35,964 bases of DNA from the IMG/VR virus record IMGVR_UViG_3300035216_000982, positions 1-35,964 of that record; one strand, written 5' to 3'. The notes under the pieces are model-generated. The model had not been told where the DNA came from and did no database searches. It worked only from the letters and a program-made list of their open reading frames with translations. Below are positions 9,804-33,311 of this stretch, in pieces; within the stretch, counting starts at the first letter, position 1; every line of letters begins with the position of its first letter. The position numbers and the translations under genes were made by a program. The stretch comes from a virus.

Positions 9804-9811
9804 CTTTAAAC
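9804..9811 (-). promoter_or_regulatory. GTTTAAAG motif (putative late promoter) for the gp36-like unit
   Basis: GTTTAAAG on the minus strand, 23 bases before the ATG at 9780. It directly abuts the T run of the capsid terminator, so a new transcript would start just where the capsid transcript ends. Confidence 0.6.
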
Positions 9812-9837
9812 AAAAAGGGCCGACCCGAAGGCCAGCC
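9812..9837 (-). terminator. Strong rho-independent terminator after the capsid gene
   Basis: On the minus strand GGCTGGCC, a TTCG loop and GGTCGGCC form an eight-pair stem (two of them G-U wobbles) followed by CTTTTTG. The tetraloop and the T run make this the clearest terminator in the window. It lies 25 bases after the capsid stop codon and should limit or taper read-through into the gp36-like unit. Confidence 0.88.
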
Positions 9838-9862
9838 AGTTTGTTAAGTTGTCGATTATAAA

Positions 9863-10843
9863 TCAGACGCAGTTGGTGAGGATTGCTCCAGCGCCAACTT
9901 TACCGTTTTCGCCCATGCCAACTAGCTCGAATGAACGCTCAACAAGGATGTCACCGGTGAATACACGGCGTTCGATGTTGAATCGCTCAGGAGTAGCGAT
10001 AGGATAACCAGCAAGAGTGTAGGTGTATCCAAAAGCAGGGTTACCGTAGTTTGCATCCAATGCAGGAGCGAAACCATCAGTAGCGCCAGAAGGCTGGTAG
10101 AAGAGGACCGCTACGTTGGTGTAGATGTTCTCAAGTGATCCAGTCGCCTGGTTAAGCTTAAGACGACGTGCAACACGAATCTCGTCAAGGCCAAAGATGT
10201 TGGCGAGAGTTTGTTCGTTGACGAGAACGCCACGTTGCATGAAGTCTCTGATTCTCTTGTTACGCTTGAGGGCGTTGAAGGCATCAGGTGAGATAACCAT
10301 CTTATTAGGATAGGTACCGATCTGAGAGCGAACAGCTTCCTTAGCTTCGTCGATTAGGACTTCGATATCAGAAGTAGCAGCGTTGAACTTGTCTGCGCCA
10401 GAAGCGCGAGTAGAAAGGTCAAATATGCAAGAGGTCTCATACGAAGCAGAAGCTGTAACAGCATCAGCAACGGTGATCTCCCATGACTGCATAAGACGGT
10501 TTGCAGCGTCCTTTGCAGCGTACTGACGAAGGTCAATTTGAGCAGCGCCGTTCTTGGCTTCTGCTGCGATTTCCTCAGCAATTTCCCAGCTAATCGCTTC
10601 CTGACGGAGAGCGAACGAGCGTGTTCCGAACTCATTCTGGATCTTTTGGATATTAGATCCGGGTGAGCGGAGGAAATTCTGAGCGGCAAAGGCTTCCTTG
10701 CCGAATACGAGTGTACGGCCGGCGCGTGTATTCATAGATACGGCGGGACCGAAGAATGTAGCAACGCCTTCGGCGTTCTTGTAGCCTTGGGCGAGTTGCG
10801 TAAGAATAGGATCGATTACGCGTACTTGATCTAGATTCATCAT
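9863..10843 (-). CDS. Major capsid protein
   Basis: This 326-residue protein has the build of an HK97-fold major capsid protein of the Mu/lambda-E-like type. It has an N-terminal arm (MNLDQVRVIDPILTQLA), then a long region with the KxAF and E-loop-like strands and a spine helix rich in alanine (QYAAKDAANRLMQSWEI). The P-domain segment PNKMVISPDAFNALKRNKRI is followed by IFGLDEIRVAR, a typical end-of-capsid arrangement. Its codon use is cleaner and more GC-rich than that of its neighbours, as expected of the most expressed gene. AGGAGA serves as ribosome site. The order protease-scaffold, decoration, capsid, followed by a strong terminator, supports the call. Confidence 0.85.
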   Translation of the reverse strand: MMNLDQVRVIDPILTQLAQGYKNAEGVATFFGPAVSMNTRAGRTLVFGKEAFAAQNFLRSPGSNIQKIQNEFGTRSFALRQEAISWEIAEEIAAEAKNGAAQIDLRQYAAKDAANRLMQSWEITVADAVTASASYETSCIFDLSTRASGADKFNAATSDIEVLIDEAKEAVRSQIGTYPNKMVISPDAFNALKRNKRIRDFMQRGVLVNEQTLANIFGLDEIRVARRLKLNQATGSLENIYTNVAVLFYQPSGATDGFAPALDANYGNPAFGYTYTLAGYPIATPERFNIERRVFTGDILVERSFELVGMGENGKVGAGAILTNCV

Positions 10844-10867
10844 GATTTTAAAATTCTCCTTATTTTA

Positions 10868-11379: not shown

Positions 11380-12747
11380 TTAGTTGTTGTTAATAACAAA
11401 CTTAACAGCTGTTAAGTAATCGCAGTCGTTCTCTTCAGCATAAGATAATGCCTCTGCATGAACGTTAGCGGTGTTTGGATCGTAAGCGTATCCAGAAGCG
11501 TTGGGCTCGACCGACTTCGACTTTTTGGGTGCAGAAGTTGGTGTTGCAAACTCTTCAAACGAGACCATAGATGGTAAGGAATCAAGAACTCCACGCATGA
11601 AGTCAAACTGTGATGCCTTTCCGGTCTCCGAGAAATTCACAGAGTTCTTATTGTTAAGAGTCTCCATGAAACGAACAAGATCTCCCTTAGGTACAACCTG
11701 TTCGGTAAGCTTACCAGACTCGTAGAGTCCTTCAGCGAACGAAGAAATTTCTTTCTCGCGAGCTAGCTTTCTTTGCTTATTAAGCTCTTCCTCGAGTTCG
11801 GCTACTCGAGCGTTAAGGTTATCAACGCTCTGATCTCCAATAGCGGATTCGCTATGATCTAGAGATTCGGTAGCCACAGGTGCAGCTTCTTCGGCGTGGT
11901 CAGCTTTCTCTTCTTTCTTTTCTTCTTTAACCTTTTCGGACATGTCAGATTTTTTCTCGTCTTCGTCCTCTTCCTTTTTCTTCTTCTCTTCTTCCATTTC
12001 GCCGCAGCCTTCGCCACTGTCAACTACTTCTTCAGCATGATCTGCTTCTTCCTTTTCTTTCTTTTCCTCTTCTTTTTCTTCGGCGTTATCAACTACTTCT
12101 TCAGCGTGATCGGCCTCTTCCTTTTTCTCTTCGTCGTCCTCTCCTTTTCCTTCCTTTTCTTCCATGTGCTTTTTGAGTCCTTCTGGCATTTCGCCATAGG
12201 AAGCGCCCTTCTCCATCATGGAGCCGGCCTGCTTCTTGAGAGCCAGTGCTTGGAAGAGCTCGTCTTCGTCGTACTCGGCAGCTAGAGAGGCAATTTTCTT
12301 GTCGTTATTCTCCATTTCACCAGAGATATCTTCTTCGCCGTCCTCTTTAGCAGGCTCATTGCCTTCTCCCTCTTCATCGCCCATACCTTCTTCGGTAGGA
12401 GCTTCTTCATCACCCATGCCTTCTTCAGCAGGAGCTTCTTCATCGCCCATACCTTCTTCGGTAGGAGCTTCATCTTCTAGACCCATGTCATCGCCTTCAC
12501 CTTCACCCTCGGGGGCTTCGGATTCAGCTTCAGGAGCCATTTCTTCATCTGTTTCTTCGTCAGCAGCATACTCCATTTTATAGTCGGCAGGAGCACCTGT
12601 TTCGCTGACTTCATTGCCTGAGTCGTCATAGACGGAGGGTTTGCCTCCGCCGATATTGATATTGACGGTCATTCCGCCCTCGGCATGATCAGCTGTTTGA
12701 TCGACCGAGACCTCCTTGACTACGTCATTGTTTTTCTTTTTAGTCAT
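11380..12747 (-). CDS. Predicted separately expressed scaffold protein (internal start)
   Basis: Met185 of the protease-scaffold (ATG at 12745-12747) lies 26 bases downstream of an internal GTTTAAAG motif (12774-12781), the same spacing as at the true gene starts. Protein starting there would be 455 residues, beginning MTKKKNNDVVKEVS, and would contain the whole acidic scaffold but none of the protease. Nested scaffold genes in the protease gene are known from lambda (C/Nu3) and Mu (I/Z). No ribosome site precedes the ATG, but the other motif-driven first genes also lack one. The nested gene is an inference; the spacing and frame are seen directly. Confidence 0.5.
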   Translation of the reverse strand: MTKKKNNDVVKEVSVDQTADHAEGGMTVNINIGGGKPSVYDDSGNEVSETGAPADYKMEYAADEETDEEMAPEAESEAPEGEGEGDDMGLEDEAPTEEGMGDEEAPAEEGMGDEEAPTEEGMGDEEGEGNEPAKEDGEEDISGEMENNDKKIASLAAEYDEDELFQALALKKQAGSMMEKGASYGEMPEGLKKHMEEKEGKGEDDEEKKEEADHAEEVVDNAEEKEEEKKEKEEADHAEEVVDSGEGCGEMEEEKKKKEEDEDEKKSDMSEKVKEEKKEEKADHAEEAAPVATESLDHSESAIGDQSVDNLNARVAELEEELNKQRKLAREKEISSFAEGLYESGKLTEQVVPKGDLVRFMETLNNKNSVNFSETGKASQFDFMRGVLDSLPSMVSFEEFATPTSAPKKSKSVEPNASGYAYDPNTANVHAEALSYAEENDCDYLTAVKFVINNN

Positions 12748-13299
12748 AGCAAAGTTGTTTGTTTCTAAGGCTTCTTTAAACGAAATAGTGATGTCCCCCT
12801 CTTCGGGAGTCAAGTTAATAATTTTTTCGTTATTAAGTTCACCTTCGGAAAAAGCGGTTAGGCCTTTAACGGCAGGAATTGATACTAGTCCAAGATGACG
12901 AAGTGCTAATTTTCCGGGATAAGGGTTTGTCTCAGCCTCGGGTAAGTAGAACGAGCTACTTACTTTCTTAAACACTCCGTCGCGAATTAGTTTTTCAGCT
13001 TTAGGAGTAAGTTCAACGTTACCCCATAAAGCCTTACCTTTTCTCCAAAGATTTTTTACCCAACCCAATGCTGGGGTTCCGTCTGTTTGATCATGCCCGA
13101 TAATAAGAGGGGCCTCGTGGTCACCAGGAACATAGGTCCCAATAACCTGATCCAGATCCTCCTCTGTGAACATTAATTTTTGCCCAGTAGAGCTGATTTG
13201 AGCACCAGCCCTGAACATTTCTATGTGCACAGATTTCTTCTTTTGTTGAGAAGATAGAGGTTCTTTTGAGTTTATAACCTGTTCTTGATTATCAGACAT
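11380..13299 (-). CDS. Head maturation protease fused to scaffold (Mu gpI-like)
   Basis: Residues 1-150 are a Mu I-type prohead protease: LMFTEEDLDQVIGTY, PLIIGHDQTDGTPALGWVKN (His69 is a candidate catalytic residue), LWGNVELTPKAEKLI, FKKVSSSFY (serines 114-116) and LRHLGLVSIPAVKGL. This follows the family pattern '..GHpktDgpAyGWV..FkkvSaSFY..LRHvgflg..PAvkGL'. The rest (about 185-639) is an extremely acidic, lysine-rich scaffold with tandem EEGMGDEEAPT units, DHAEE repeats, a coiled coil (about 500-530) and a structured C terminus, the usual site for binding the capsid protein. The protease cleaves scaffold and itself after assembly. An internal start at residue 185 may give the scaffold alone. 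ATG 13299 follows the sheath stop by 9 bases. Confidence 0.82.
   Translation of the reverse strand: MSDNQEQVINSKEPLSSQQKKKSVHIEMFRAGAQISSTGQKLMFTEEDLDQVIGTYVPGDHEAPLIIGHDQTDGTPALGWVKNLWRKGKALWGNVELTPKAEKLIRDGVFKKVSSSFYLPEAETNPYPGKLALRHLGLVSIPAVKGLTAFSEGELNNEKIINLTPEEGDITISFKEALETNNFAMTKKKNNDVVKEVSVDQTADHAEGGMTVNINIGGGKPSVYDDSGNEVSETGAPADYKMEYAADEETDEEMAPEAESEAPEGEGEGDDMGLEDEAPTEEGMGDEEAPAEEGMGDEEAPTEEGMGDEEGEGNEPAKEDGEEDISGEMENNDKKIASLAAEYDEDELFQALALKKQAGSMMEKGASYGEMPEGLKKHMEEKEGKGEDDEEKKEEADHAEEVVDNAEEKEEEKKEKEEADHAEEVVDSGEGCGEMEEEKKKKEEDEDEKKSDMSEKVKEEKKEEKADHAEEAAPVATESLDHSESAIGDQSVDNLNARVAELEEELNKQRKLAREKEISSFAEGLYESGKLTEQVVPKGDLVRFMETLNNKNSVNFSETGKASQFDFMRGVLDSLPSMVSFEEFATPTSAPKKSKSVEPNASGYAYDPNTANVHAEALSYAEENDCDYLTAVKFVINNN
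12375..12473 (-). repeat. Three tandem 33-bp units in the scaffold coding region
   Basis: Units starting at 12375, 12408 and 12441 (period 33 bases) encode 11-residue acidic repeats of the form EEGMGDEEAP(T/A); the last is slightly shorter. Copies differ by a few silent or conservative changes. They form part of the acidic scaffold domain and could expand or contract by replication slippage without breaking the frame. Confidence 0.85.
12774..12781 (-). promoter_or_regulatory. Internal GTTTAAAG motif inside the protease-scaffold gene
   Basis: GTTTAAAG on the coding (minus) strand, read as part of the codons for Ser-Phe-Lys, 26 bases before the in-frame ATG at 12747. See the scaffold entry. 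It could be chance, but the position matches that of the motif at true unit starts. Confidence 0.45.
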
Positions 13300-13308
13300 T
13301 TTTAATTA

Positions 13309-16300
13309 TCAAACGGTAGTTTGGTTAAGGAGATAGTCGAATCTATCTACGTTTCTAGAGAACGAATCCTGTACCTGAGCAACCTGACCAGCAGGTGTTC
13401 TAACCACAGTAACAACTAGACGCTCAAGCGTTGGCGATGTAGCCACGTAAGCATCGAGTCTTAATGTTCCATTTTCCAGATCAGCTAGGCTGTTGTTGGC
13501 ATCAGAGCAAACAACAAGATATGCTTGTTCTGGTCTTGCACCAAAAAGCGCACCCTGACGATAAAGTTGGCCCATAACCTGAGAGGCAATAGACTTGGCT
13601 CTAGAATAGAGTGTACCAGCAGAATCGATCTGTTCAAAGAGAACATCGTCGAAGCTCCTAGCCATAACATCAAGAAGGACGTTAAGGATCGCTCTCGTGT
13701 TAACAAACTTGAAGAGAGCATTTGGGCTCATTGTTCTAGCGCCCCAGGCAACAATTCCTCTATTGGGTAGGCTTCTAATTGGATTGAGGCCTAGAGGGTA
13801 TGTAACTTCTTGCTGTTGGGCAGTGATATCAAAGCGGAGGCCATTGGCTCCTCTTAGTGGGTATCTTGCACCAGCGGGGGATTGTTGGAATCCTTCGTTA
13901 ACGTATCTAGAGCAAGCAATACCTGCAATGTACGCACTAGGAGGAACAAATCTATCAGCAGCGTTCTTGATGTAAGGAGCATAGAAAGCACCGTGGCCAA
14001 AAGGAGCACCGGCTGTAGACTTAACATAAGCGAGTTCATCTTGTACTTCACTCAAGCTGAGTTCATCAGCTCCACAATCGATAAGTGCGATGTGCTGAGT
14101 ACCAGAGATACCCTCAACTTCACCAAGCTTACCTTCGGCAGCTCTTAGAAGCGCTTGAGAGACTTTTACTCTTTCTTCTCTTGCTTCTTTCTTAGTAAGA
14201 ACACCAGTTTCTTGCTTGAAACTCGTAAATGCTTCTGGGGCAAAAAGGAAGCCAGGGCGATATTCGCTGGCACCCATGCCTTGCTCGATAGCATAAACAA
14301 AGTCCTGAGCCCTTGCTTTAGAGGATAACTTGTAAGCAGAAAAATCAGCGGCTTCAGAGAGCGAGTTGATTCTAACTACGTTCGTATCTCTCTGTCCGTA
14401 TCTGTTAAGACCAGGAACAACAGGAGAAGGAATACCGTTCTTAGAAGTAATTTTTACTTTAAGAATATAGTCGTGACGATAGAACCCGTTAGCAATAGAG
14501 CTATCTAGGAACACCGTAGTAGAACTAGAGGTAAACGCAGGAGCAGAAGTTACAACGAAAGCAGAGTCATTAGTTACGCTTGCAACTTGGAATCTGTAGC
14601 CATTGATAACAACATAGGATCCGGTATAAAGACTCTCAGTAAACTTGGTTGTTACTGTGCTGTAGCTTGTGCTAGCTGCAACAGTGGCACCAGCCACGTT
14701 ACTTACGATAGCCTGGGTATTAGAGGAAACGGTAACAACTTCATATGTAGCGGATCCGATAAGGAGTCTGTATCCGGGGGCAATAGATGAAAGGAAATCT
14801 GTGCCTGAACCTAATAAAGCTCCACTTGCCAAGAGTTGAATTGTTCCACTCTGAGCTGAAGTCGATCCTTGGATAGTTGTGTTAGAAGCTGTTGTTGCAA
14901 TAGTTCCTGTAAGTGCTTTTCCGTCATTTGTAGGACGAAGAGCAGGCTTACCGGCGTTAGCAGTAGAAATAGAGATTGCAGTGCCATTGTTAGGTGCAAA
15001 ATTACCAGCTCCTAAACCAGAGTAGTCAACAGAAACTGCATCTACCTCATAGTAAGGATCGAGTTCTTTCTCTGCAATAACTTCTTTAAGTGACTTAACG
15101 ATGTCTGCTGTAATCTCGTCTGGAGTAGCGCCATTAGCAATAATGACTCTGTTTTCTCCTGCGATATTTACATAGAAGACTTGGACGCTGTCAGGAACAT
15201 ATCCGGTTCTTGTAACATTACCGCCTACAGAAGTGATCGTTCCATTAGGAACCTCGGTTAGGCCTCCTCCAGCTGCTCCTGCAGTAAAGGCGGTAGTGCC
15301 AGCATCCCACTGATAATAAGCGGCGAATCCATCGGACCATTTAATATGGTCGTCTTTTCCGACTCTTTCGTCAGTAGTAACGGCTACAATCTTGTTATCT
15401 GGGATGTTGCTGTCAGCTGCGTAGATCTCTTGATCAAGCAAGAAGTCTTCGATTGCTTTAAATACGTCTGCTTGAACAGCAGGGTCATAGGCAAGTCTAC
15501 GAACTCTTACTTCTAAAGCGTTATCAGACGTAAAAGTGAGAGCAGCACCTGAGCCATTATTGATAATGAAGGTATCGCCAGATACACTTAAGACAACGTA
15601 TGTAGTGCTATAGAAGATATTTCCGGTAGGAAGCTCACCAGCGGCGTTATAAGCAGCTTGGCCAGGGTTGATTCCTTCAAAAACAATTTTATCACCTGCA
15701 GCAAGAGCGTCGGCTCCAATGCTAAGCTTAGCGATCTCTCCTGAGCCCATTGTAACAACGCCGGTTGAGGCGGTGAAGGAGCCAGCAGAAGCCGTCTTTC
15801 CAGTTACGGATGTTTCTTCTAAGAAATTACCAATGGCCGAACCAGAGATAGGAAGAACAGGCTCTTGAGATGATACGTCTCTAGCAATGCATCTAAAATC
15901 AAGTTCTTTGATTGGAACGTAGCGACTAATCGTTCCTGCATCTGTCGGAGTCGCATATGCGGTATCAGAAATCTGATAACCTTTGAAGCTTTGGATGGTC
16001 GGGATTACGCGAACGTCTTTAGAGTAAATTCTGAAGGTAGCCTTTTTGGCTTCTTCATCTGTTTGCTCAATTCTATAGAACGTTTTGAAATCAGGATCAT
16101 CTTGTGAAAGATAACCTACGATATCAAACGCGTTGTCACTCGCATCAAGAGCAGTAGTTGTAATAACTCTGATCTCTACGCCGTCGGAATCATTGATACC
16201 CAGGGACTTATCCCCGAAGTAACGATCACCAACTTTTAATGAGAATAAGTTCCATCCAGCAGCCTTGGTCACGATGACCTTGGATTCTGGAGTAGGAGTT

Positions 16301-16641: not shown

Positions 16642-16680
16642 AAATTAAATCTTTGCAAAGTAAGAGGCCTTTCAGATAGC

Positions 16681-16688
16681 CTTTAAAC
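16681..16688 (-). promoter_or_regulatory. GTTTAAAG motif before the sheath-capsid operon
   Basis: GTTTAAAG on the minus strand, 39 bases before the sheath ATG at 16641. The leader is A/T rich without a clear ribosome site. It lies in the 66-base gap between the sheath and the small gene ending at 16708. Confidence 0.6.
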
Positions 16689-16707
16689 AAATAGCCATTT
16701 ATAAGCT

Positions 16708-16950
16708 TTAATCTTCTGGTTCGTTTTTGTACAAATCAAATAGGTTATTCATTAACCAATCTGGGCAGCTCTCGCTACCACATTTTTGGAGCTCTAAGAT
16801 CTTAAGAGACTTACGCATTATCTTATTGAAATCGGAGTCTGTAACGTGATGAGAGCATACTTTAACAAACCCTTTTAGCTCGGTATCATTCTTATGCACT
16901 ACAATCGAGCACAGGATTAATATGAGTTTCAGTCTTAGTTCGTCTGTCAT
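16708..16950 (-). CDS. Small hypothetical protein, 80 aa
   Basis: A helical protein with two cysteine/histidine-rich spots (LILCSIVVHK, VCSHHVTDSD) and a CGSESCPDWLM segment. No family is recognised. Its start overlaps the end of the previous gene by 4 bases (ATGA type), so it is coupled to it. As the third gene in a short unit just upstream of the sheath it may help tail assembly. Confidence 0.6.
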   Translation of the reverse strand: MTDELRLKLILILCSIVVHKNDTELKGFVKVCSHHVTDSDFNKIMRKSLKILELQKCGSESCPDWLMNNLFDLYKNEPED

Positions 16951-17712: not shown

Positions 17713-17739
17713 GATTTACATTGAGTTGTACGTTCTTTT

Positions 17740-17747
17740 CTTTAAAC
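17740..17747 (-). promoter_or_regulatory. GTTTAAAG motif for the minus-strand chaperone unit
   Basis: GTTTAAAG on the minus strand, 27 bases before the ATG at 17712. Together with the plus-strand copy at 17765-17772 it forms a divergent pair with 17 bases between them. Confidence 0.6.
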
Positions 17748-17764
17748 TCTAATTTTGATTTTTT

Positions 17765-17772
17765 GTTTAAAG
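17765..17772 (+). promoter_or_regulatory. GTTTAAAG motif for the plus-strand island
   Basis: GTTTAAAG, 21 bases before the ATG at 17794. Downstream, TCTTAGATAGA (17776-17786) is shared exactly with the bases following the motif at 33304-33311. Confidence 0.62.
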
Positions 17773-17793
17773 ACATCTTAGATAGAAATAAAA

Positions 17794-18458: not shown

Positions 18459-18468
18459 ATGATATAAT
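18439..18468 (+). promoter_or_regulatory. Possible promoter before the dCMP deaminase gene
   Basis: TATAAT (18463-18468) is a perfect -10 box and TTAGAC (18439-18444) a weak -35 at 18-base spacing. The start codon is 19 bases after the box, close to the 20-24 bases seen at the polymerase and gnd-like genes. It would allow the deaminase to be made early, independent of the late motif upstream. Confidence 0.45.
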
Positions 18469-20300: not shown

Positions 20301-21105
20301 AGTATTGGTCTATTTGGATATTACTTAGATTCTTAGGAAAGAAAGCATACATTTGAATCGGGATTACATTTGTTGGAGGGGCATTATCCCATAATACCAG
20401 CCAATTGTTTGTGACTAACAACCTAATCTTAGATGCAATTCTATTGTTACCCCAGTTAATGTCATTGCCTCTTAGGTCTAATAGAGTGCTATAAGACTTT
20501 CTGAAAGGAGGTAAAGAGCCCGGAAATATGTTAGCCGAAGAAGTTTTTGTGGGTCTAAAAGAACTCAATGTTTCTTCTAGTCCGTCTTCTGTTAACCTAC
20601 AGTTCTTTAAACTCAATACCTTGATATTTTTAGACAATCCTAATAAAACAGACTCTAAATTAATGCAGTTAGTAAGGTCAAGAAATTCTAGGGCTGATAA
20701 ATTAGACCCAGTAAAGGATCTGAGATTAATATTTCCTTCTAGATTTATTCTCCTAAGAGATGACCTCTTAAGATTCATATTAACATAAAGCAAAGAATTC
20801 CTTTGCAAGTTAATAGACTCTATGTGGGGATCTATGCTGTTACCGGTCTCTGCGTCTATCCACAAATCGTCCCAAGTGAGTATCTCTTGGTTTGTTAGTT
20901 TTAATTCTCCTAGCGGCGGTGGAGAGGTGACTATTATATCTAAAACACAAGAGTTTGATTTTTGTTTTGATAGATAGACATTGTCGTCTGAAACAATATT
21001 TTTATTTGGGAAATCTACATAATTAAAAGAACTATTTTGCTTCTTTGTTATAGGTAGTAGAACTGAGTCCTTATTGCTTAGAAGAAAGTGAGTAGATATT
21101 TTCAT
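20281..21105 (-). CDS. Leucine-rich-repeat protein, 274 aa
   Basis: The middle (about residues 88-215) has several leucine-rich repeats of the LxxLxLxxC/N type: IESINLQRNSLLYVNM, LRRINLEGNINLRSF, LEFLDLTNCINLESV, IKVLSLKNCRLTEDGLEETL and a last STLLDLRGNDINW. Repeats of 20-24 residues with Asn or Cys at the turn position indicate a curved solenoid. The N terminus is strand-rich and the C terminus (NWLVLWDNAPP...) is not recognised. LRR solenoids bind other proteins; in a virion operon a role in receptor binding or baseplate assembly is possible. The ATG overlaps the stop of the 1322-aa gene (ATGA). LRR proteins are uncommon among phage structural genes. Confidence 0.75.
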   Translation of the reverse strand: MKISTHFLLSNKDSVLLPITKKQNSSFNYVDFPNKNIVSDDNVYLSKQKSNSCVLDIIVTSPPPLGELKLTNQEILTWDDLWIDAETGNSIDPHIESINLQRNSLLYVNMNLKRSSLRRINLEGNINLRSFTGSNLSALEFLDLTNCINLESVLLGLSKNIKVLSLKNCRLTEDGLEETLSSFRPTKTSSANIFPGSLPPFRKSYSTLLDLRGNDINWGNNRIASKIRLLVTNNWLVLWDNAPPTNVIPIQMYAFFPKNLSNIQIDQYYGRPKI

Positions 21106-25070: not shown

Positions 25071-25090
25071 GCTAAAACACTTTTTTTAAA

Positions 25091-25098
25091 CTTTAAAC
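25091..25098 (-). promoter_or_regulatory. GTTTAAAG motif, minus-strand half of the inverted repeat
   Basis: GTTTAAAG on the minus strand, 20 bases before the ATG at 25070. A related TTTTAAAC lies next to it (25084-25091). It is the left arm of an exact inverted repeat with the plus-strand copy at 25104-25111. Confidence 0.65.
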
Positions 25099-25103
25099 TT
25101 TAA

Positions 25104-25111
25104 GTTTAAAG
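25104..25111 (+). promoter_or_regulatory. GTTTAAAG motif, plus-strand half of the inverted repeat
   Basis: GTTTAAAG, 21 bases before the ATG at 25133. Only TTTAA separates it from the minus-strand copy, so the two divergent promoters would stand back to back in a 62-base intergenic region. Confidence 0.65.
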
Positions 25112-25132
25112 CTTTGTAGCTATGATCAAATT

Positions 25133-26534: not shown

Positions 26535-26704
26535 CCCAAGGCCAAAACGTCCGAGTGGAGGGCGCAGAGGAATTAATTAAAGAATGGGAAGACGGAGAAA
26601 TCACTGTTGAGGAGCTTAGGACTAAGATTTTGGAGCTTGAAACTGTGTATGTTGACTTAACCAAGGTAGTTGAGCCAACTCAGTTTAAAGATAGCGAAGA
26701 ATAA
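26510..26704 (+). CDS. Small acidic protein, 64 aa
   Basis: An acidic helical protein (VEGAEELIKEWEDGEITVEE, then LRTKILELETVYVD). AAGGAA inside the end of the previous gene serves as ribosome site for ATG 26510. The last codons (Gln-Phe-Lys-Asp) contain a GTTTAAAG motif placed to serve the portal gene. Family unknown. Confidence 0.6.
   Translation: MEEGINILTQGQNVRVEGAEELIKEWEDGEITVEELRTKILELETVYVDLTKVVEPTQFKDSEE
26683..26690 (+). promoter_or_regulatory. GTTTAAAG motif directly before the portal gene
   Basis: GTTTAAAG in the last codons of the 64-aa gene, 24 bases before the portal ATG at 26715. Like the copy in the protease gene, this one sits in coding sequence yet keeps the distance seen at true unit starts. 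It could provide extra portal transcription independent of the upstream unit. Confidence 0.5.
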
Positions 26705-26714
26705 TGTGTTGTAA

Positions 26715-28583
26715 ATGACCTCTGAAAATCCTCAAAGGCATATCAAATCTGGGTTTTTTGATCGCTATTTTTCTTTGGGCACTCCTCAAGGAAATCTAGC
26801 AGGATACAAATCAGATCCGTATTCCTACTCAGGTGCTCCTTACCTTACGAGCGGAGTAATACTCCCTCGTAGAGACGATATCCTTTTAGAAGAAGGAGGC
26901 GGCGGCCCCCGCGCAATTGAAAAATATATGAGGCTGTTTAACGACAGCCAAATCCTTGCTGCTTGGGAAAAGCTAATAGGAGAGATTATTCAAAGGCCTT
27001 GGGAGGTTTACCCTTCTTCAGATAGACCAGAAGACGAAGAAATTGCAGAGTTCGTACGACAAGTCATTAATCGTATGGGCAGCAATACAAGACAATCTTA
27101 TGGAAAAGAATCTTTAGTATCCACGAGCTCAGGGTTTGATACCTTCATCCGTGGCATGTGTGAGTCTATTGTGCTCGGCATGTCAACTGGAGAGATCTGC
27201 TGGATGCGACAAGGTAAGTACATCGTGCCATCTGAGATAAAAATCAGGGACCCACGTAGGTTCTTATTTCGCTTGAATGAGGATGGGACAGTAAGTCCTA
27301 GGCTTATCACTATGTTCTCTCCTGTAGAGGGCATGGGTATACCTTTAAGGTCCATGATTATGCATAGGCACTGGTCCTATAGCAACTTCATGGACGTGCA
27401 TGGCTCAGGGCTAGGACGCCAGCTTTATCCTCTTGTTGAGTTTAGAAGGACTCTACTTAACTTCTGGCTTCAGTACGCAGATAAGCATACAACACCAACA
27501 GCCGTAGGTAAATTCAGTCTAGGCACACCTGAAGAAGAAGTTAATTCTTTATTTAGTGCATTACAACGTTTAGGGCAAGAGACTGCCGTTGTTATACCCG
27601 ACGAGATGGACATTCAATGGCTGGAGAGCAATGGTCGCCCAGAACTCTACAACCAGCTTATTACATATATTGATCAACAGATCAGTTTTGTGATTAATGG
27701 AGAGACAACCGTTGGTCAAGAGACCGGTAGTGTTGGCTCATTTGCGCGCGATCAAATCGCCGACTCTGTGAGGATGAGGAAGGCCAAGGCTTTCTCTGAA
27801 GAGCTTGATGAAACAATTAACTCTACTTTGGTCCGATGGATAGTAGAACTCAATTATCCTGGCAAGACTCCTCCTAGGTTGGTACGTAACTTCGAAGATC
27901 TCAAGCAGAGAGAGGATCCCGTGCGCATGGTGCAAGTACTCTCCCAGTTAGGAGCTTTAGGGTACCAAGTAGATGACGTAGACTGGCTAAGGGAAAAACT
28001 TAACATCCCTTCATTGACCAAGCAGGAAATGCCTGAAGGTGGAATGATGGGAGGTATGATGCCTCCTATGGAAGGTGGTCAAGAAGCCGAGGCTCCTATG
28101 GCCGAAGACATGGACTTTGGCACAGACCTCATGAAGCTATTCGATTTTGAAGAGCCTTCAGAGAAACAGAAGATGTCCCAAGAGATCGCTGCTAATTTCA
28201 AAGGAGATCTCGATGATGTTGGTTTCCAACGCATTGTAACTGACTCTACAGGTAATGAGATGCAGATCTCTAGGCTGAAGATAGATGAGTTTACCTCACC
28301 AGGGGAGATTATCTTTGTCATAGAGAGACTCCTAGAAGAGATAAGAAACGTACGAAAACAGCCTCCTGAGACTCTTGAGCTTAAGGCAAGGTGTGAGACA
28401 GAAGTACAAAGGATGAAGAGCCTTATAGAGCAAGAGGGTCTATCTGAAGGTGATTCTATGGATCTGATCTCTTTATACGAGGAGACATTTAGATTAAATA
28501 GATACGCCGTGCATAGAGAAGCCGTGACTCTAAATATAGAGAAGAAAGGATATTGGAGATGGTTTGATCCGTACTTCCAGTAA
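26715..28583 (+). CDS. Portal protein (DUF935/Mu gp29-like)
   Basis: The 622-residue protein follows the DUF935 portal pattern: AIEKYMRLFNDSQILAAWEK, IIQRPWEVYPS, VLGMSTGEICWM, IKIRDPRRFLFR, GSGLGRQLYPLVEFRRTLLN, TTPTAVGKFSLG, AVVIPDEMDIQWLES, ITYIDQQISFVINGETTVGQ and the RDQIADSVRMRKAKAFSEEL helix. It would form the dodecameric ring at the capsid vertex through which DNA is packaged. A methionine/glycine/proline-rich linker (about residues 437-460) joins a C-terminal helical domain (to 622) that is longer than in Mu. Packaging genes should lie nearby, but no large terminase is in the window. Confidence 0.88.
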   Translation: MTSENPQRHIKSGFFDRYFSLGTPQGNLAGYKSDPYSYSGAPYLTSGVILPRRDDILLEEGGGGPRAIEKYMRLFNDSQILAAWEKLIGEIIQRPWEVYPSSDRPEDEEIAEFVRQVINRMGSNTRQSYGKESLVSTSSGFDTFIRGMCESIVLGMSTGEICWMRQGKYIVPSEIKIRDPRRFLFRLNEDGTVSPRLITMFSPVEGMGIPLRSMIMHRHWSYSNFMDVHGSGLGRQLYPLVEFRRTLLNFWLQYADKHTTPTAVGKFSLGTPEEEVNSLFSALQRLGQETAVVIPDEMDIQWLESNGRPELYNQLITYIDQQISFVINGETTVGQETGSVGSFARDQIADSVRMRKAKAFSEELDETINSTLVRWIVELNYPGKTPPRLVRNFEDLKQREDPVRMVQVLSQLGALGYQVDDVDWLREKLNIPSLTKQEMPEGGMMGGMMPPMEGGQEAEAPMAEDMDFGTDLMKLFDFEEPSEKQKMSQEIAANFKGDLDDVGFQRIVTDSTGNEMQISRLKIDEFTSPGEIIFVIERLLEEIRNVRKQPPETLELKARCETEVQRMKSLIEQEGLSEGDSMDLISLYEETFRLNRYAVHREAVTLNIEKKGYWRWFDPYFQ

Positions 28584-28591
28584 TCCACCTA

Positions 28592-28599
28592 GTTTAAAT
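28592..28599 (+). promoter_or_regulatory. Variant motif GTTTAAAT before the tail tube gene
   Basis: One base differs from GTTTAAAG. It lies in the 51-base gap after the portal gene, 35 bases before the tube ATG. The leader is A/T rich without a ribosome site, as at the exact motifs. Confidence 0.45.
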
Positions 28600-28634
28600 A
28601 CTATTTAGAAATATTGCATATAACATAATTTACT

Positions 28635-29063
28635 ATGCTATCCTATAAGCCTATTACTCAAGCACAGTACTGGATCCAGGCCTCGCCTTTCCAGCACTAC
28701 TTCACTACTTTCTCAGGAATCAGAGATACATCTGGAACTACTCAGTACGCTGATGGTGTCAGAGGTCGTATCTTCCAGCTCAAGGGTCCTCGTACTCTTG
28801 CGGAAGTGACCGTATCTACTCCATTCGACCCTGAGAAGCACGCAGACATCGTCGACTTCTGGAAGACGTATGATTGTTCCTTTGTTACTTTGACCGTGAC
28901 TCCTGTTGAGTGCGGTGAAGACCCTAGCCCAGTTGGTAACAGAACCATCACTATCCCAGATGCTCAAATCACTTCTATTAATTTTGGCCAAGCCGACAGG
29001 GCTTCTACAAATGTATCTACCCTAGAGCTTACATTTGTAATGGACACGTTTACATATAACTGA
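28635..29063 (+). CDS. Tail tube protein
   Basis: The 142-residue protein is nearly all beta and has the design of a contractile-tail tube subunit: YWIQASPFQHYFTTFSG, a RGRIFQLKGPRTLAEVTVST strand pair, FDPEKHADIVDFWKTY helix, and a final ITSINFGQADRASTNVSTLE, then LTFVMDTF strand. The 'G....a.vTvs.p.d...h..i..~..' order and the final edge strand fit the tube fold. The length is normal for a tube (130-180). It is unlinked from the sheath gene, which lies 12 kb away on the other strand, unlike Mu or T4. The identification is from pattern and context. Confidence 0.7.
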   Translation: MLSYKPITQAQYWIQASPFQHYFTTFSGIRDTSGTTQYADGVRGRIFQLKGPRTLAEVTVSTPFDPEKHADIVDFWKTYDCSFVTLTVTPVECGEDPSPVGNRTITIPDAQITSINFGQADRASTNVSTLELTFVMDTFTYN

Positions 29064-29085
29064 TCTATTATAGGAGAGTTGAGGT

Positions 29086-30438
29086 ATGTCAACCTCCAAT
29101 TTATTTTTTAAAGGTTGCTTTTCTGAACTAACAGATGAGCAACTCCAGGCTATTGAGGCTATAGGCGCCGATGGAAATCTGGTAGATGAGTCTTGCGCAC
29201 GAGAGACAAATACGTGCGGAATGACTCTGACCCAGTTATTAAATATACACGAGTTATACGACTTTCAAAGAGGAGTACTCTACGAAAAGTGGGGAGAAGT
29301 CACTTTCCCTTGGGAGATAAAACCCACCACCACAAACCTAGACTATGAGAAGTCAAGGAAAGAATGGAGTGTTGCCAATTATATAGGGCTTACTTCGTAC
29401 TATACCGGAGATAGAGTATTATACATAGAGGACGACGGATACGCCATCTCTGTGTACGAAGCAAACCAAGATATATCAGCTCCTGCGGGCCCTTTAGATA
29501 GGACCAAGTGGGGCAAAGTTTGTACTATAGAGTTTTCTGACCCAGTCCAGCTTCCTTCTATAAAGAAGCTTATAGACACTTATGAGTTTTATTTCCTGAA
29601 GGAATTTCTTGAGGATTGGGGAGAAGTTAATGAGGGCTGGAAAGTAGATCTGCAGGGAAGAAGCAGCGATGAATGGGACGACTATAAGATAAGAAGAGAC
29701 TTCTTCTACAAAGTAGGAGATTTTGTCTTAGTGGAATCGCAATGTAGCGATGCCTTCTGTCTCTGGATTAATATAAAAGACATTCCGGTTACTGACCAGA
29801 ACCTAATAGACTTCGCAAAGTTTACCCCTGTGGTGAATGGTGAAGTATACTGGGAGAAGATATATTGTGTGAACTCTGGCATGAACCGATGTCTAGGCCC
29901 ACAATCAGATAGGAATTTGGATAATTACCAGTTTGTTGAGATAGGATCTAAAGGGCACTATGTTGAACAGCCCATCCCTTACTATGACCTAAAAGGTAAT
30001 TATATCTGTGATCAGTACAACCACAAGACTTTAGGTGAGGCTGCTGCACTAAGACCCAGCAGAGTGCTAACACAAAATGAAATTGACTATCTTGATGGCT
30101 TAGTGGATGAGATTACCGACGCTTCTACATTTGGTAACGAGGCAACTTCGACCCCTCAGTCTTCTACTTCATCGGTATCCCCGTGGCTGCGTCCACCTTC
30201 ACAGGCTCCTGTCGTAACTCAACCTGCCCCTACACCCGCACCTACGCCCTTTCCTAACTATTCTTCGCCGAGCCCAGCTCCAACCCCCACACCTACTCCT
30301 ACTCCCACACCTACTCCTACTCCTACACCGACGCCTACTCCCACACCTACTCCTACACCGACACCTACTTCTACTCCTACATCGACACCCACGCCTTCGC
30401 CCTCTCCTAGCTACGGTGGTGGCTACGGTGGCTACTGA
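29086..30438 (+). CDS. Virion protein with carbohydrate-binding-like modules and proline/threonine repeat, 450 aa
   Basis: Residues about 100-150 ([20 protein letters not shown], then [20 protein letters not shown], then W) match the layout of small sugar-binding modules (YxxGDxVxYxGxxYxA...P....W). A second, looser copy may start near residue 205 ([13 protein letters not shown]). From residue 399 a (Pro-Thr)n repeat of some 40 residues leads to a glycine/tyrosine tail (GGGYGGY). The repeat would form a stiff stalk or linker, as in secreted sugar-binding enzymes. It probably sits on the tail or capsid and binds host or surface glycans. AGGAGAG before the ATG gives an ordinary ribosome site, and it likely shares the tube transcript. 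Confidence 0.65.
30280..30396 (+). repeat. Degenerate CCNACN repeat encoding a Pro-Thr stalk
   Basis: A run of alternating Pro and Thr codons (six-base period, mostly CCTACT/CCCACA/CCGACG) within the 450-aa virion gene, with a few Ser interruptions near its end. Longer 18- to 24-base units (for example CCTACTCCTACACCGACG) recur, so length variation by slippage is likely. Confidence 0.9.
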
Positions 30439-30448
30439 TCACTCTGAG

Positions 30449-30456
30449 GTTTAAAG
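30449..30456 (+). promoter_or_regulatory. GTTTAAAG motif directly before the fibre gene at 30463
   Basis: GTTTAAAG only 6 bases before the ATG. If the motif acts like a -10 box, transcription would begin at about the start codon and give a leaderless message. The short distance makes this the exception in the set. The tract may instead only reflect an A/T-rich start region. Confidence 0.42.
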
Positions 30457-30462: not shown

Positions 30463-31296
30463 ATGGCAAATGTATTCGGAGGAGGATCCAGCTCTAGCGG
30501 ATCTTGCGGAAGCGATCAAGATATCATACAGGCACCTAGGCAGCAAGTAGTTCCCCCAAGGAACGTCTCTTCTAGTCTTAATGTTTTTAATGAAACAAAT
30601 CAGGGCTCAGGAAACCTTAGTCTTAGGGAGTTCTACACAAAAAGAGAGCTAGATAAATACTTAGATGCCAAAGCTGAAGTTGCAGATGTATATAACAAAA
30701 ACTCCCTCTACACTAAATCTGAAGTAGATTCCTTAATTAGTGGCCTAAGTCTATCTAATTATGCCACATCTAGCTACGTAAGCACGGAATTAGCGAGTCA
30801 ACTATCCACTATAAATAACAACTTTGCTCAAAATTACTACACCAAGAGTGTTTTATATACACAGACTCAAGTTGATAGTTTAATCTCTAGTCTTTCTATA
30901 ACTGGTGACTATATCTCAAAGACTCCCGCCACTATGGCAGAAGTAACTATAGTCCCAGAAGTTAACACCCTTACTGCTAGTTTTATTGTTCGTTCCTCAA
31001 ACAACACCGATTCTACAGAAGTTCAGAGATGGGAAAATTCTTCTACTGACTACTTAGGATCAGTGTACGCAGATGGCAAGGCAAAATTTGTAAACACTGT
31101 TATAGTAGGACAAAACGTCAATGTTAACGGAGTTGGTTTAGAATTAAGTGAGAAAAGGATATCTGATGTGGCTAATCCAATAGATGACTTTGACGCCGTT
31201 AATAAGCATTTTATGGAGGCGTTTATCACTACAACAATAGACCAAGCAACCCAAACAACGGACGAAAATTACCTAGTAGACGCTCTAGAATACTAA
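30463..31296 (+). CDS. Tail fibre/baseplate-attached protein with YTKxEVD repeats, 277 aa
   Basis: The N terminus is glycine/serine-rich. The middle has several copies of the fibre motif YTKxEVDSLISxL: FYTKRELDKYLD, LYTKSEVDSLISGLSL, and YYTKSVLYTQTQVDSLISSL, spaced by coiled-coil-like stretches (about residues 55-145). Such repeats form trimeric shafts. The end has an ADGKAKFVNTV strand and ISDVANPIDDFDAVNKHFM, the 'I.dva.P.~~~DavnK.y' segment found in fibres before a chaperone or tip. It joins the next gene after a single base. It is probably a fibre shaft or connector. Confidence 0.75.
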   Translation: MANVFGGGSSSSGSCGSDQDIIQAPRQQVVPPRNVSSSLNVFNETNQGSGNLSLREFYTKRELDKYLDAKAEVADVYNKNSLYTKSEVDSLISGLSLSNYATSSYVSTELASQLSTINNNFAQNYYTKSVLYTQTQVDSLISSLSITGDYISKTPATMAEVTIVPEVNTLTASFIVRSSNNTDSTEVQRWENSSTDYLGSVYADGKAKFVNTVIVGQNVNVNGVGLELSEKRISDVANPIDDFDAVNKHFMEAFITTTIDQATQTTDENYLVDALEY

Positions 31297-31297
31297 C

Positions 31298-33295
31298 ATG
31301 ACAAACTCCTCGCCAAGAGACGTAATCCTCCACAGAAGATCACGTGTAAAAAACAAAAGGCCCCTAACAACAGACATCCAATGGGGCGAGATTGCCGTTA
31401 ATTTTAACGACGAAGATCCTAGTGTATATATAAAAGACGAAAGTAACAAGATAAGGAAAGTTGGTGGTATATTCTATTCAGATGTGGCTCCTGATCCCTC
31501 AGTTGCTATCGATGGGTCTCTAGAGCTATCCCATGGCGAGTTATGGGTACAGAAGATCAGCCCTCCGGCGGCAATCTCTGATCAGGACGAGGATGCTCGT
31601 TTGTATGTCTATAATAAGTTTATAAATTCAGGTGCAGGTGGATGGCTAGAGATCGGTAAGTTCAGATTTGCTCTTATAGAAGAAAGTCTAGATCAGTTCA
31701 AAGACGGTACTGATGGAGAGGATATAGTTCACACAGCCGGTAACCAGATCCTTATTAATAACAAGAGCGTTATAAAGGGTGAGTCTACGGCCGGAGGAAA
31801 TAAGGTAATCATCAACGACGGAGCAAATTTTGCAACAGCAGTCATAAACGCTAGTAGCAATGTAATAATTAACTCTAGTGATATAGATGTAAATGCTGAT
31901 AACGTTGTCCTAAGCTCAGCGACTTCTTATATCTTTCAAACCGACAGCGTAACAGGCACAGGATCTTCTACTTTTACTTACAATGACCACGGGTTATTTA
32001 ATGGTGAGGAGATCTTTGTAGAAGAGTTTCTTAACGACAACTCGACTCCTGGAGGATTAACCTCAGGTAACTATAAGATCTCTAACACGACTTTAAATAC
32101 TTTCAAGCTTAATAACGGCTCTGCGGATGTGCTCGCATCAGGCAACGTAAGAATCAAGTACTCTCCGAAGCTGGTATTAGACCAAGATTACAACGTCTTG
32201 CAATCGGGTAATTTTGAGGTGAAGGGGTTGGGTGACTTCCCTGATACATCACAGATCACAGATGGCCGATGGGATATCTATCAAAACACTCAGAACGGAA
32301 ACGTAAGGATATACTCAAGGACCGGAACTAACATCTCAGAGATTGTAGGATCTTCCGTAACAATAGACGTTAAGAACTCCACAGGGTCTGTTATTAATGC
32401 ATGGACTCCTGTGTATTTTGTAGGGTTTGACCCAATCAATAATGTGATCACTATAGGCCCTGCAGATGCCTCTTCTTCTTTGGCAATGAAAGCTTTGGGA
32501 TTAGCAAGTGCAAATATACCCGCAAACGGGCTAGGAGTAGTGACTGTATACGGAGAACTAAAAGTCGGCGATAGCCTCATCATTGATTCTAATCCTCCCG
32601 GTAGCGACGAGTCAGGCAATGTTGTATACGTGAAATCTGGCGGAGGGCTTACATTTTTGCCCCCTACAAAGGCTCAAGGCCAACGGCAGCCAATAGGTTT
32701 ATTATTAAAAGAATCGGTAACGGACCCCAACGGAAGGATATTTGTTAACCACCCAGATATAGATAACCAAGTGCAACTAAAGCAGGGATATATCTTTGTA
32801 GGATCAACAGGTGACCACGCTACGGCCTATAGGCTAGATACTAATTTCTTCCAGACTTATGTCGCAGATGATAATGAGCTAGAGATCAGCGTGGCCGATG
32901 AGATCTCTTTTGGAGCCTACGAGTTCCTATGGGACGGGAACTCAGGGAGCAAGATCCAGAAGAAAGTATCTACTTCAGACGAGGGGATCGGTAACACTCA
33001 GCAAACTACAATTGATTCCTTCCCAGTCACGTATCGCTCTGCTAAATTCTTTGTTCAGATCGCTCTAGGAGGAGCGGGGATCCCGGCAAATTATCAGATC
33101 ACAGAGCTTCTTATAGTGCACAATGGCACAGACGTAAATCTTGTGGATTATGGCACAGCCTCTACTCTCAACCAGCGCCTTGGAGACTTCACCGCTAACA
33201 TCGTTGGAAATAACGTAGAGATATACTTCCAAAGATACGCCGCTACATTGGGACAAATCCAGATAAAAACTATACGCACGGCCGTTCTCTCTTAA
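31298..33295 (+). CDS. Large tail fibre protein, 665 aa
   Basis: The N terminus (about residues 1-60) has the conserved fibre start RGEIAVNFND-type motif, seen here as QWGEIAVNFNDEDPSVYIKD. It then has repeated strand modules, including VTGTGSSTFTYNDHGLFNGE then GNYKISNTTLNTFKLNNGSA (about 215-285), the same 'GexV.f...lp.GL..g.Y.v....TF.L..' module that is inserted in the sheath. The rest is beta-rich with a strand-ladder look (NVVYVKSGGGLTFLPP), ending in a compact tip domain. No enzymatic motif is recognised. It likely forms a long fibre that carries the receptor-binding tip. Confidence 0.75.
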   Translation: MTNSSPRDVILHRRSRVKNKRPLTTDIQWGEIAVNFNDEDPSVYIKDESNKIRKVGGIFYSDVAPDPSVAIDGSLELSHGELWVQKISPPAAISDQDEDARLYVYNKFINSGAGGWLEIGKFRFALIEESLDQFKDGTDGEDIVHTAGNQILINNKSVIKGESTAGGNKVIINDGANFATAVINASSNVIINSSDIDVNADNVVLSSATSYIFQTDSVTGTGSSTFTYNDHGLFNGEEIFVEEFLNDNSTPGGLTSGNYKISNTTLNTFKLNNGSADVLASGNVRIKYSPKLVLDQDYNVLQSGNFEVKGLGDFPDTSQITDGRWDIYQNTQNGNVRIYSRTGTNISEIVGSSVTIDVKNSTGSVINAWTPVYFVGFDPINNVITIGPADASSSLAMKALGLASANIPANGLGVVTVYGELKVGDSLIIDSNPPGSDESGNVVYVKSGGGLTFLPPTKAQGQRQPIGLLLKESVTDPNGRIFVNHPDIDNQVQLKQGYIFVGSTGDHATAYRLDTNFFQTYVADDNELEISVADEISFGAYEFLWDGNSGSKIQKKVSTSDEGIGNTQQTTIDSFPVTYRSAKFFVQIALGGAGIPANYQITELLIVHNGTDVNLVDYGTASTLNQRLGDFTANIVGNNVEIYFQRYAATLGQIQIKTIRTAVLS

Positions 33296-33303
33296 GGAAT
33301 ACT

Positions 33304-33311
33304 GTTTAAAG
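33304..33311 (+). promoter_or_regulatory. GTTTAAAG motif before the last fibre unit
   Basis: GTTTAAAG followed by TCTTAGATAGA (33312-33322), the same 11 bases that follow the motif at 17765-17772 after a 3-base insertion there. The next ATG is 44 bases downstream and, unusually for the set, is preceded by a ribosome site (AGGGGAAAG). Confidence 0.6.

Follow-up and report, generated by a model that had tools for sequence, protein, structure and literature searches.

The window and its relatives

The DNA analyzed in this study (hereafter the window) is the virus record IMGVR_UViG_3300035216_000982 of IMG/VR, a record in its own right with a length of 35,964 bases, which carries, among others, genes for portal, tail sheath, tail tube and head-tail adaptor proteins. 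Many of its virion genes are preceded by an 8-bp sequence, GTTTAAAG, which probably forms the −10 core of a phage promoter. An 18-kb query from the window (positions 12,000–30,000) matched phages S-TIM5, S-TIM54, S-TIM61 and S-TIM66 with 75–77% nucleotide identity over 55% of its length, and its counterpart in S-TIM5 is situated at about 44–61 kb. These matches identify the window as a TIM5-like cyanophage fragment, which, judged from its gene order, should as a whole cover ~32–68 kb of S-TIM5. Among the myoviruses of marine cyanobacteria, the TIM5-like phages form a lineage of their own, which is reported to be widespread.

The sigma factor gene of S-TIM5 is located at 110–111 kb, outside the part matched by the window fragment. 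Since the window does not contain this region, the complete genomes of S-TIM5 (212 coding genes) and S-TIM54 (209) were analyzed together with IMG/VR loci; the relatives S-TIM61 and S-TIM66 were left out. The IMG/VR sets comprised 37 portal loci of clade A, 28 portal loci of sister clade B, the portals of which are 58–64% identical to those of clade A, and 24 clade A loci retrieved by their SigF gene. Genes in these loci were predicted with a purpose-built caller, for which S-TIM5 and S-TIM54 served as training genomes; of the 212 annotated S-TIM5 starts it recovers 171.

Distribution of the motif within the window

Eleven exact copies of GTTTAAAG were found in the window. An earlier sequence-only reading had located them at the same positions, had reported none in the first 9.8 kb, which is correct, and had expected one or two by chance; 100 dinucleotide-preserving shuffles of the window gave a mean of 1.84 copies and a maximum of 5. 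Its distances between motif and start codon (gaps) were all reproduced upon recalculation. The description of ten copies as preceding start codons has to be amended in one respect: the copy at 12774 lies inside a gene (11380–13299, minus strand), and the ATG that follows it is internal to this gene.

The numbers of orthologs given below refer to nonredundant loci in which the motif occurs, with at most one mismatch, within 90 nucleotides (nt) upstream of the gene. On the minus strand, the motif precedes the genes of the head-tail adaptor (core 9804..9811, gap 23; gene 8983–9780, phrog_195; 45/50 orthologs) and the tail sheath (core 16681..16688, gap 39; gene 13309–16641, phrog_17610); the latter is served in 28/38 orthologs, 15 of them by GTTTAAAG and 13 by GTTTAAGG. 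Four cores form divergent pairs. The core at 17740..17747 (minus strand, gap 27; gene 17368–17712; 31/34 orthologs) stands back to back with the one at 17765..17772 (plus strand, gap 21; gene 17794–18192; 30/34), 17 bp away, and the core at 25091..25098 (minus strand, gap 20; gene 21102–25070; 26/30) lies 5 bp from the one at 25104..25111 (plus strand, gap 21; gene 25133–25600; 11/21). Further plus-strand cores precede the portal gene (26683..26690, gap 24; gene 26715–28583, PF06074 Portal_Mu; 43/45), gene 30463–31296 (30449..30456, gap 6; 13/24, 12 of those 13 at gap 6) and gene 33356–33598 (33304..33311, gap 44; 9/9).

The tail tube gene (28635–29063, plus strand; phrog_5102) is preceded at 28592..28599 by the variant GTTTAAAT, for which the gap of 35 nt given by the sequence-only reading is likewise right. 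All 43 orthologs of this gene have the motif, and in 38 of them it is GTTTAAAT rather than GTTTAAAG, as if the strength of this promoter were held at a set level.

A TAGATA sequence is found downstream of the cores at 17765 and 33304, and TAG follows those at 25104 (offset 5) and 28592. The RNA starts predicted for three of these sites lie near 17780 (core 17765), 25118 (core 25104) and 28607 (core 28592). No TA is present at +4..7 behind the cores at 9804, 16681, 17740, 25091 and 26683.

Two copies are situated within genes, both on the minus strand. The first (12774..12781), in the Mu-like protease gene, is followed by TAGA 6 nt downstream, with a predicted RNA start near 12766. The second (20605..20612) lies on the sense strand of gene 20281–21105 and is the one that the sequence-only reading had set apart as not preceding a start codon. 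Behind it there is TAGG, 5 nt downstream, and it is a possible internal promoter for gene 19239–20300, 304 nt further on. Counterparts occur at 52656 in S-TIM5 and 53290 in S-TIM54, the two relatives covered by this comparison, and as an internal promoter this copy makes the weaker case.

The late promoter of phage T4 consists of the element TATAAATA and has no −35 box. As the sequence-only reading had observed, such an element does not stand before the genes described here: exact copies of TATAAATA occur twice in the window, at 30810 (plus strand, within a gene) and 1493 (minus strand).

Enrichment upstream of virion genes and conservation

The genomes of S-TIM5 and S-TIM54 contain 36 and 38 copies of GTTTAAAG, respectively, of which 25 and 26 lie 10–50 nt ahead of the annotated start of a same-strand gene (P = 5e-32 and 1e-33; 0.91 expected in each genome). 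Among 8-mers with at least four upstream copies, the motif ranks first in both genomes. It also takes first rank in the portal loci of clade A, with 54/88 copies 5–60 nt before a called gene (P = 7e-65), and in those of sister clade B, with 45/73 (P = 5e-54). By S-TIM5 gene, orthologs with the motif amount to 45/50 (gene 40787), 31/34 (49167), 30/34 (49592), 26/30 (53150), 11/21 (57083), 13/24 (62510), 9/9 (65538) and 10/17 (106128). Few or none were found, under the same limits, ahead of the genes for DNA polymerase (2/21), major capsid protein (MCP; 1/54), a DNA-binding protein (0/13), terminase (0/8) and SigF (0/15).

Intergenic DNA is AT-rich, and base composition or chance might be suspected as the source of such a word. 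The shuffle counts, the first rank in both complete genomes and the result of reading the motif backwards (1 copy in the window vs 11 forward) make this explanation practically untenable.

The motif is biased towards virion genes. In S-TIM5 it occurs as an exact copy at a gap of 5–120 nt before 18 of 47 virion genes and 10 of 165 others (Fisher's test, 2e-7); in S-TIM54 the numbers are 17/46 and 14/163 (1e-5). If each gene is counted that follows a motif within a same-strand run, 43/47 virion genes of S-TIM5 and 42/46 of S-TIM54 are included, along with 70/165 and 95/163 of the other genes. The association with structural transcription units, the genome-wide enrichment and the conservation in two clades of relatives thus bear out what the sequence-only reading had proposed, and the sigma-like gene that it had suggested looking for is present in both S-TIM5 and S-TIM54. 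Its general view, of a late-type promoter with a single −10-like element, different from that of T4 and read by another phage sigma factor, is supported by these sequence comparisons.

Some in-gene copies of GTTTAAAG are shared by both phages and lack the TAG element, namely those in a virion gene and a primase gene (S-TIM5 93152 and 144122; S-TIM54 98625 and 148079). The in-gene copies in the primase, grx, tail-fibre and one virion gene, where TAG is absent from the right place, may be coding coincidences. The ends of aligned IMG/VR records, taken as a proxy for transcript ends, lie near a motif in 16 of 256 cases, several of these ends having been made by the flank limit of the analysis itself, and this line of evidence was set aside. 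Another word, CCCCCCCC, is present in 19 copies, 19/19 of them upstream of called genes (clade A; loci L123–L155, L182–L184 and L186).

Flanking elements and spacing

No conserved −35 box was detected: no alignment column exceeds 0.32 bits within 45 nt upstream of the core, and none exceeds 0.24 bits within 20 nt. On this point the sequence-only reading stands; what it overlooked is a partner element on the downstream side, TAG, for which 5–6 nt after the core is the commonest place, and the leaderless class of genes described below. An expectation-maximization search upstream returned CTTTAAAC (log-likelihood ratio 65 vs 12–20 in shuffles) at scattered distances; this is the reverse complement of the motif, as expected from back-to-back promoters. 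Downstream of 117 nonredundant sites, the search returned TAGATA (log-likelihood 75 vs 13–15 in four letter shuffles with fewer restarts), located exactly 5–6 nt after the core in 44 of them. Offsets 5 and 6 are where TAG begins in 56 of 145 nonredundant leadered sites (P = 6e-28, for a background of 0.034 per position) and TA in 82 (P = 5e-11). In the complete genomes, TA is found at +4..7 after 20 of 28 (S-TIM5) and 21 of 31 (S-TIM54) upstream cores.

The gap between core and start codon, searched up to 60 nt in distinct contexts from S-TIM5, S-TIM54 and the IMG/VR loci, falls into two classes. Of the 216 contexts of the exact motif, 210 have a gap of 15–60 nt and five a gap of 6 nt; one has a gap of 1 nt, and gaps of 7–14 nt do not occur. 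Among the 115 contexts of three variants, 109 gaps measure 17–51 nt and four measure 6 nt, the two others being 3 and 9 nt. The gap-6 contexts belong to four different genes: that of S-TIM54 68154 and its relatives, whose products begin with MANVFG and whose window counterpart is the gene at 30463; that of S-TIM5 172120 and S-TIM54 174443, with the core GTTGAAAG; one in locus L109; and one in locus L112, again with GTTGAAAG. S-TIM5 62510 carries GTTTAAAA at the position of the gap-6 site. These sites read core-N5-(T or C)-ATG, with the A of ATG just where TA(G) has its A.

The simplest reading of the two gap classes is that RNA would start at the A of TA(G). An ATG located there would therefore give a leaderless mRNA, as predicted for the window gene 30463–31296 (RNA start at the A of its ATG, 30463), and other start codons are far enough downstream for a leader. 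Errors in start annotation were considered as a source of the gap-6 class; for gene 30463 they are unlikely, as MANVFG-like N-termini follow this ATG in many relatives.

The motif could also be a −35 element, with the AT-rich TAGATA/TATA stretch downstream acting as the −10. GTTTAA is the −35 sequence of SigB-type sigma factors, and GTTTAAAG matches it; the families nearest to the phage sigma factor are SigF and SigB/SigF/SigG, a sigma-4-like domain seems to be present in its model, and the DNA is AT-rich 8–22 nt from where the motif begins. However, TAGATA most often lies just 5–6 nt past the core, too near for sigma-2 and sigma-4 to bind together, and with a gap of 6 or 15–22 nt the start codon would fall at or before the RNA start, so that the two-class spacing argues against this assignment. 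Divergent cores are 5 and 17 bp apart in the window and 5, 11 and 17 bp apart in S-TIM5, which leaves little free room for −35 boxes. On this evidence we regard the role of a −35 element as quite improbable.

A further explanation places the function of the motif in the RNA, as a leader element for the translation or processing of late mRNAs. Many copies are indeed within 50 nt of a start codon (25/36 in S-TIM5), and Shine-Dalgarno-like words are scarce behind the motif, being found ahead of 2/25 and 2/27 genes vs 35/187 and 39/182 other genes in S-TIM5 and S-TIM54, respectively. A promoter accords better with gaps of exactly 6 or at least 15 nt, with the fixed place of TAG, with back-to-back copies and with the copy found 201 nt before psbA, and we consider action in the RNA very improbable.

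The putative internal promoter of the protease gene

The product of gene 11380–13299 matches Mu-like_Pro (PF10123) at residues 73–198 (37.2 bits; cut-off 25.2) as well as the head maturation protease family phrog_976. The motif is situated at the same codon of this gene, 173, in the window (12774), S-TIM5 (44488) and S-TIM54 (44625), and in all three an in-frame ATG is found at codon 185, 26 nt past the core. Among 33 nonredundant orthologs, GTTTAAAG is exact in 29; the site is lost in the remaining four, which read ATTTCAAG (two), ATTCCAGG and ATTTGAGG and include L121, a locus labelled GTTGAAAG. An in-frame ATG lies 21–33 nt from the Phe codon in 33/33 of them, and TAGA or TAGG is present 6–7 nt after the core in the displayed orthologs that retain the motif.

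Codon choice at the site was examined in 47 orthologs, a set filtered differently from the 33 above, and is retained far more strictly than the protein sequence or general codon usage would require. TCG, which accounts for 7% of Ser codons, is kept in 43/47, TTT in 46/47 and AAA in 43/43 of those with lysine. On average, the commonest codon takes a share of 0.61 at 86 conserved residues with degenerate codons; codons 174–176 hold three of the four top places and codon 173 is seventh. Codons I172, S114 and G153 are conserved as highly as those of the motif.

From this arrangement and by analogy with phage Mu, in which the scaffold Z is nested in protease gene I, we predict a scaffold protein of 455 amino acids that starts at Met185 in frame with the protease (11380..12747, minus strand) and has its own promoter. 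The genes that follow encode a cement protein (PF09956) and then the MCP. These genes, too, would be fed by the internal promoter, so that more scaffold, cement and major capsid protein would be made than protease. The similarity to Mu I/Z lies in the Mu-like_Pro family, the in-frame internal start and the succession of cement and capsid genes; unlike in Mu, the nested start of the TIM5-like phages would be preceded by a phage-type promoter of its own.

SigF as the likely reader

One gene annotated as SigF is the sole match to sigma-70 region 2 (PF04542) in each of the genomes S-TIM5 and S-TIM54, with 25.7 bits on the genome frame (cut-off 24) and 23.7 bits, just below the cut-off, on the protein. 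Its product has 256 residues, matches phrog_351, and has SigF and SigB/SigF/SigG as its nearest named families; at full length it scores 43 bits against the curated SigF family, far from the cut-off of 261. SigF occurs in both clades that have the motif; between them its conservation is 61–68%, and much of region 2 does not vary at all. In sister clade B it was found in 6 of 12 records, i.e. five of 89 kb and more and L039, which had been retrieved by its SigF; six records of 27–74 kb had none.

AlphaFold models of SigF are of low confidence (predicted local distance difference test, pLDDT, 60 and 64) and allow statements at the domain level only. In the pLDDT 64 model, region 2 resembles solved sigma-2 domains (Z 11.9, root-mean-square deviation 1.6 over 80 residues) and residues 4–143 resemble sigma-28 (Z 11.3, deviation 7.0). 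Helical proteins can reach Z values of this size merely by the way in which their helices are arranged. C-terminal helices are modelled at residues 166–223 (pLDDT about 72–83 at 171–220), and residues 1–227 align to sigma chains with a deviation of about 23.

The motif was found before none of the orthologs of the gene pair that ends in SigF (0/18 and 0/15). This pair is preceded by the host-type sequence TGGTATAAT in 11/11 aligned clade A sequences (in S-TIM5 at 111494); S-TIM54 has TGGTACAAT. SigF, the sole sigma factor that S-TIM5 and S-TIM54 are seen to encode, is the likely reader of GTTTAAAG.

The leader of the SigF gene pair (S-TIM5 111,421–111,506; locus L018 4570–4700 and relatives) also contains a strongly conserved ACGAGCGC(A/T)CGC and a possible hairpin, for which compensatory changes were seen in 0/17 pairs. 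Host-type sequences occur within the structural cluster too. At window position 18460 (plus strand), TGATATAAT, a host-type extended −10, lies right ahead of a gene that is perhaps of early type amid late ones and has the position of the deaminase gene of S-TIM5, where TGGTATAAT is found at 50261.

Signals of other lineages

In another lineage, GTTGAAAG stands in for the motif as a whole. Eleven loci were assembled as a separate set because GTTGAAAG outnumbers GTTTAAAG in them. There, 29/44 copies of GTTGAAAG are upstream of genes (P = 4e-33), and 1/5 of GTTTAAAG; the remaining MCP and portal loci contain, as raw totals, 502 copies of GTTTAAAG and 69 of GTTGAAAG. Eight rows of the MCP tree bear the label GTTGAAAG, and six of them group in a single clade (96/89); 10 of 58 rows are without a label. 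The other two GTTGAAAG labels, on L094 and on the outgroup L194, were each assigned from two copies.

The distant cyanophage S-CBWM1, the MCP of which is 38.5% identical, encodes two sigma factors of its own. The 49 kb examined (L194, 90,000–139,069) contain no copy of GTTTAAAG, and the top 8-mer is GGTAAAAT, with 8/10 copies upstream (P = 7e-12). Of the 14 GGTAAAA copies within 120 nt before genes, nine lie at 23–29 nt, and GGTAAAA(T) stands before the portal, sheath, capsid and other genes; in this second lineage of cyanophages it is a candidate for the late promoter. This signal is related to GTTTAAAG and different from it, which suggests that cyanophages with such sigma factors share a compact class of late promoters, G-N-N-T-A-A-A-N. 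In the T4-like cyanophage Syn9 (60,001–110,000) there are two copies of GTTTAAAG, 0/2 upstream, and the top word is ATAAATAA (3/3). So a short signal of its own is found in every lineage.

These comparisons bear on the possibility that GTTTAAAG is a promoter element read by the host polymerase with a host sigma factor, or with the aid of another phage DNA-binding protein, SigF serving some other function. The name SigF reflects a distant similarity (the 43 bits mentioned above), its role as reader is deduced from sequence, and phages such as T4 require co-activators, according to the accessible text of PMC2988020. On the other side, the complete genomes yielded no sigma factor other than SigF, which occurs in both clades that have the motif; the motif is not upstream of genes in the 50 kb of Syn9 examined, and S-CBWM1, with two other sigma factors, lacks it in the 49 kb examined and has GGTAAAAT as its top word. 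We therefore consider this alternative unlikely.

The window also encodes, at 4773–7463 (plus strand), a DNA polymerase whose exonuclease domain is of the mitochondrial (gamma) type (PF18136, E = 8e-53). Such polymerases of S-TIM5 and S-CBWM1 have already been described, as the available part of PMC7156551 shows.

Proposed mechanism

Taken together, the findings make it quite probable that GTTTAAAG is the −10 core of a promoter that lacks a −35 box, is read by SigF and drives the virion (late) genes of TIM5-like cyanophages. The host RNA polymerase with phage SigF would melt DNA at GTTTAAAG (about −15/−14 to −8/−7) in the absence of a −35 box, and RNA would start at the A of TA(G), 7–8 nt past the core, giving a leaderless mRNA where an ATG occupies this position and a short leader elsewhere. 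The position of TGGTATAAT before the SigF pair and of GTTTAAAG before the virion genes fits a cascade, in which a host sigma factor would allow SigF to be made from the conserved TGGTATAAT promoter and SigF would then activate the structural operons.

Several points weigh against this reading. The start site, the timing and the contact between sigma factor and DNA are deduced from DNA sequence, and the P values count related sequences as independent once near-copies have been removed. TA is equally common at offset 1 (46/145) and offset 5 (43), with 38 at offset 11, and a sharply defined place is seen for TAG only. Within the window itself, TA occurs at +4..7 after 6/11 cores (4/9 upstream ones; background 0.29), and it is also found after cores that are not upstream of genes, 4/8 in S-TIM5 and 3/7 in S-TIM54. 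The C-terminal domain of SigF seems, in the models, to be sigma-4-like, and its anatomy thus does not force a −35-free promoter. Nor was SigF found in ten records around the GTTGAAAG lineage (5–34 kb each), and in the 24 loci retrieved by SigF the motif (7/16 upstream) ranks eleventh, after words from the SigF leader.

The association with virion genes is also incomplete, as some copies serve other genes (the 10/165 in S-TIM5 and 14/163 in S-TIM54). A one-mismatch form, GATTAAAG, stands ahead of a nuclease gene in 6/6 orthologs and is itself enriched upstream of genes (7/16 in S-TIM5, 8/20 in S-TIM54). In both phages GTTTAAAG lies 201 nt before psbA (S-TIM5 8047, S-TIM54 7859) with TA at the right offset, and this may be a late promoter from which psbA is expressed behind a long leader.

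The full combination is more tentative, and we rate it as slightly too ambitious to be called probable: a SigB/SigF-like sigma factor with an 8-bp −10-only element and a TA(G) initiator, a leaderless class on +1, a promoter inside the protease gene, a change from GTTTAAAG to GTTGAAAG in a sister lineage together with the sigma factor, and the promoter class G-N-N-T-A-A-A-N. If the reading is true, a sigma factor of cellular type gains a defined job in the infection programme. A readable late promoter would make transcription units, timing classes and the expression of psbA-type photosynthesis genes predictable from sequence, metagenomic contigs included; the co-evolution of promoter and sigma factor could be tested in the GTTTAAAG and GTTGAAAG lineages, and a nested scaffold protein and leaderless late mRNAs are predicted.

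Comparison with known systems

The literature searched, including the accessible parts of PMC10452541 and PMC7156551, contains no description of the GTTTAAAG promoter, its link to a sigma factor, the leaderless class or the nested-scaffold promoter; the founding S-TIM5 paper (Sabehi 2012) may hold an earlier mention. One-element late promoters read through a phage factor are themselves a known kind, as the available texts on T4 (PMC2988020) and AR9 (PMC5312081) indicate.

With regard to the sigma factor, SigF resembles SigB, SigF, SigG and FliA in sequence and in the modelled fold of regions 2–3. It differs from them in scoring far under the curated family cut-offs, in its divergent C-terminus and in that no −35 box was found.

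In T4, as outlined in the accessible text of PMC2988020, late promoters consist of a short element recognized by the phage sigma factor gp55 on the host RNA polymerase, with gp33 and the gp45 clamp. The TIM5-like phages are similar in having a single short −10 element before late genes and, as we infer, a phage sigma factor on the host RNA polymerase; they differ in the sequence of the element and in SigF, which is phrog_351-like and not of the gp55 family, phrog_234. The latter was found in T4 and Syn9, whereas neither S-TIM5 nor S-TIM54 gave a match at E ≤ 1, and a profile comparison between SigF and T4 gp55 gave a probability of 0.2%. The gp45 clamp family (PF02916) had no match in S-TIM5 or S-TIM54 either, a weak test, as this profile found T4 and missed Syn9. 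None of the 25 best upstream 8-mers of S-TIM5 or S-TIM54 contains an ATAAATA word; exact TATAAATA is a blunt test, Syn9 having one in 50 kb. A T4 gp55 late system was rejected, given the lack of both a gp55-family match and a TATAAATA-type element before late genes.

The late promoters of phage AR9 read AACA-(6N)-TA/G, the last base being +1, and thirteen of them lie within genes, according to the available part of PMC5312081. As the same text describes, they need the phage's own multisubunit RNA polymerase, and their leaders are 26–491 nt long, none of the mRNAs being leaderless, in which respects AR9 differs from the scheme proposed here. In layout the two are strikingly similar: a short core, about 6 nt, and then TA/G.

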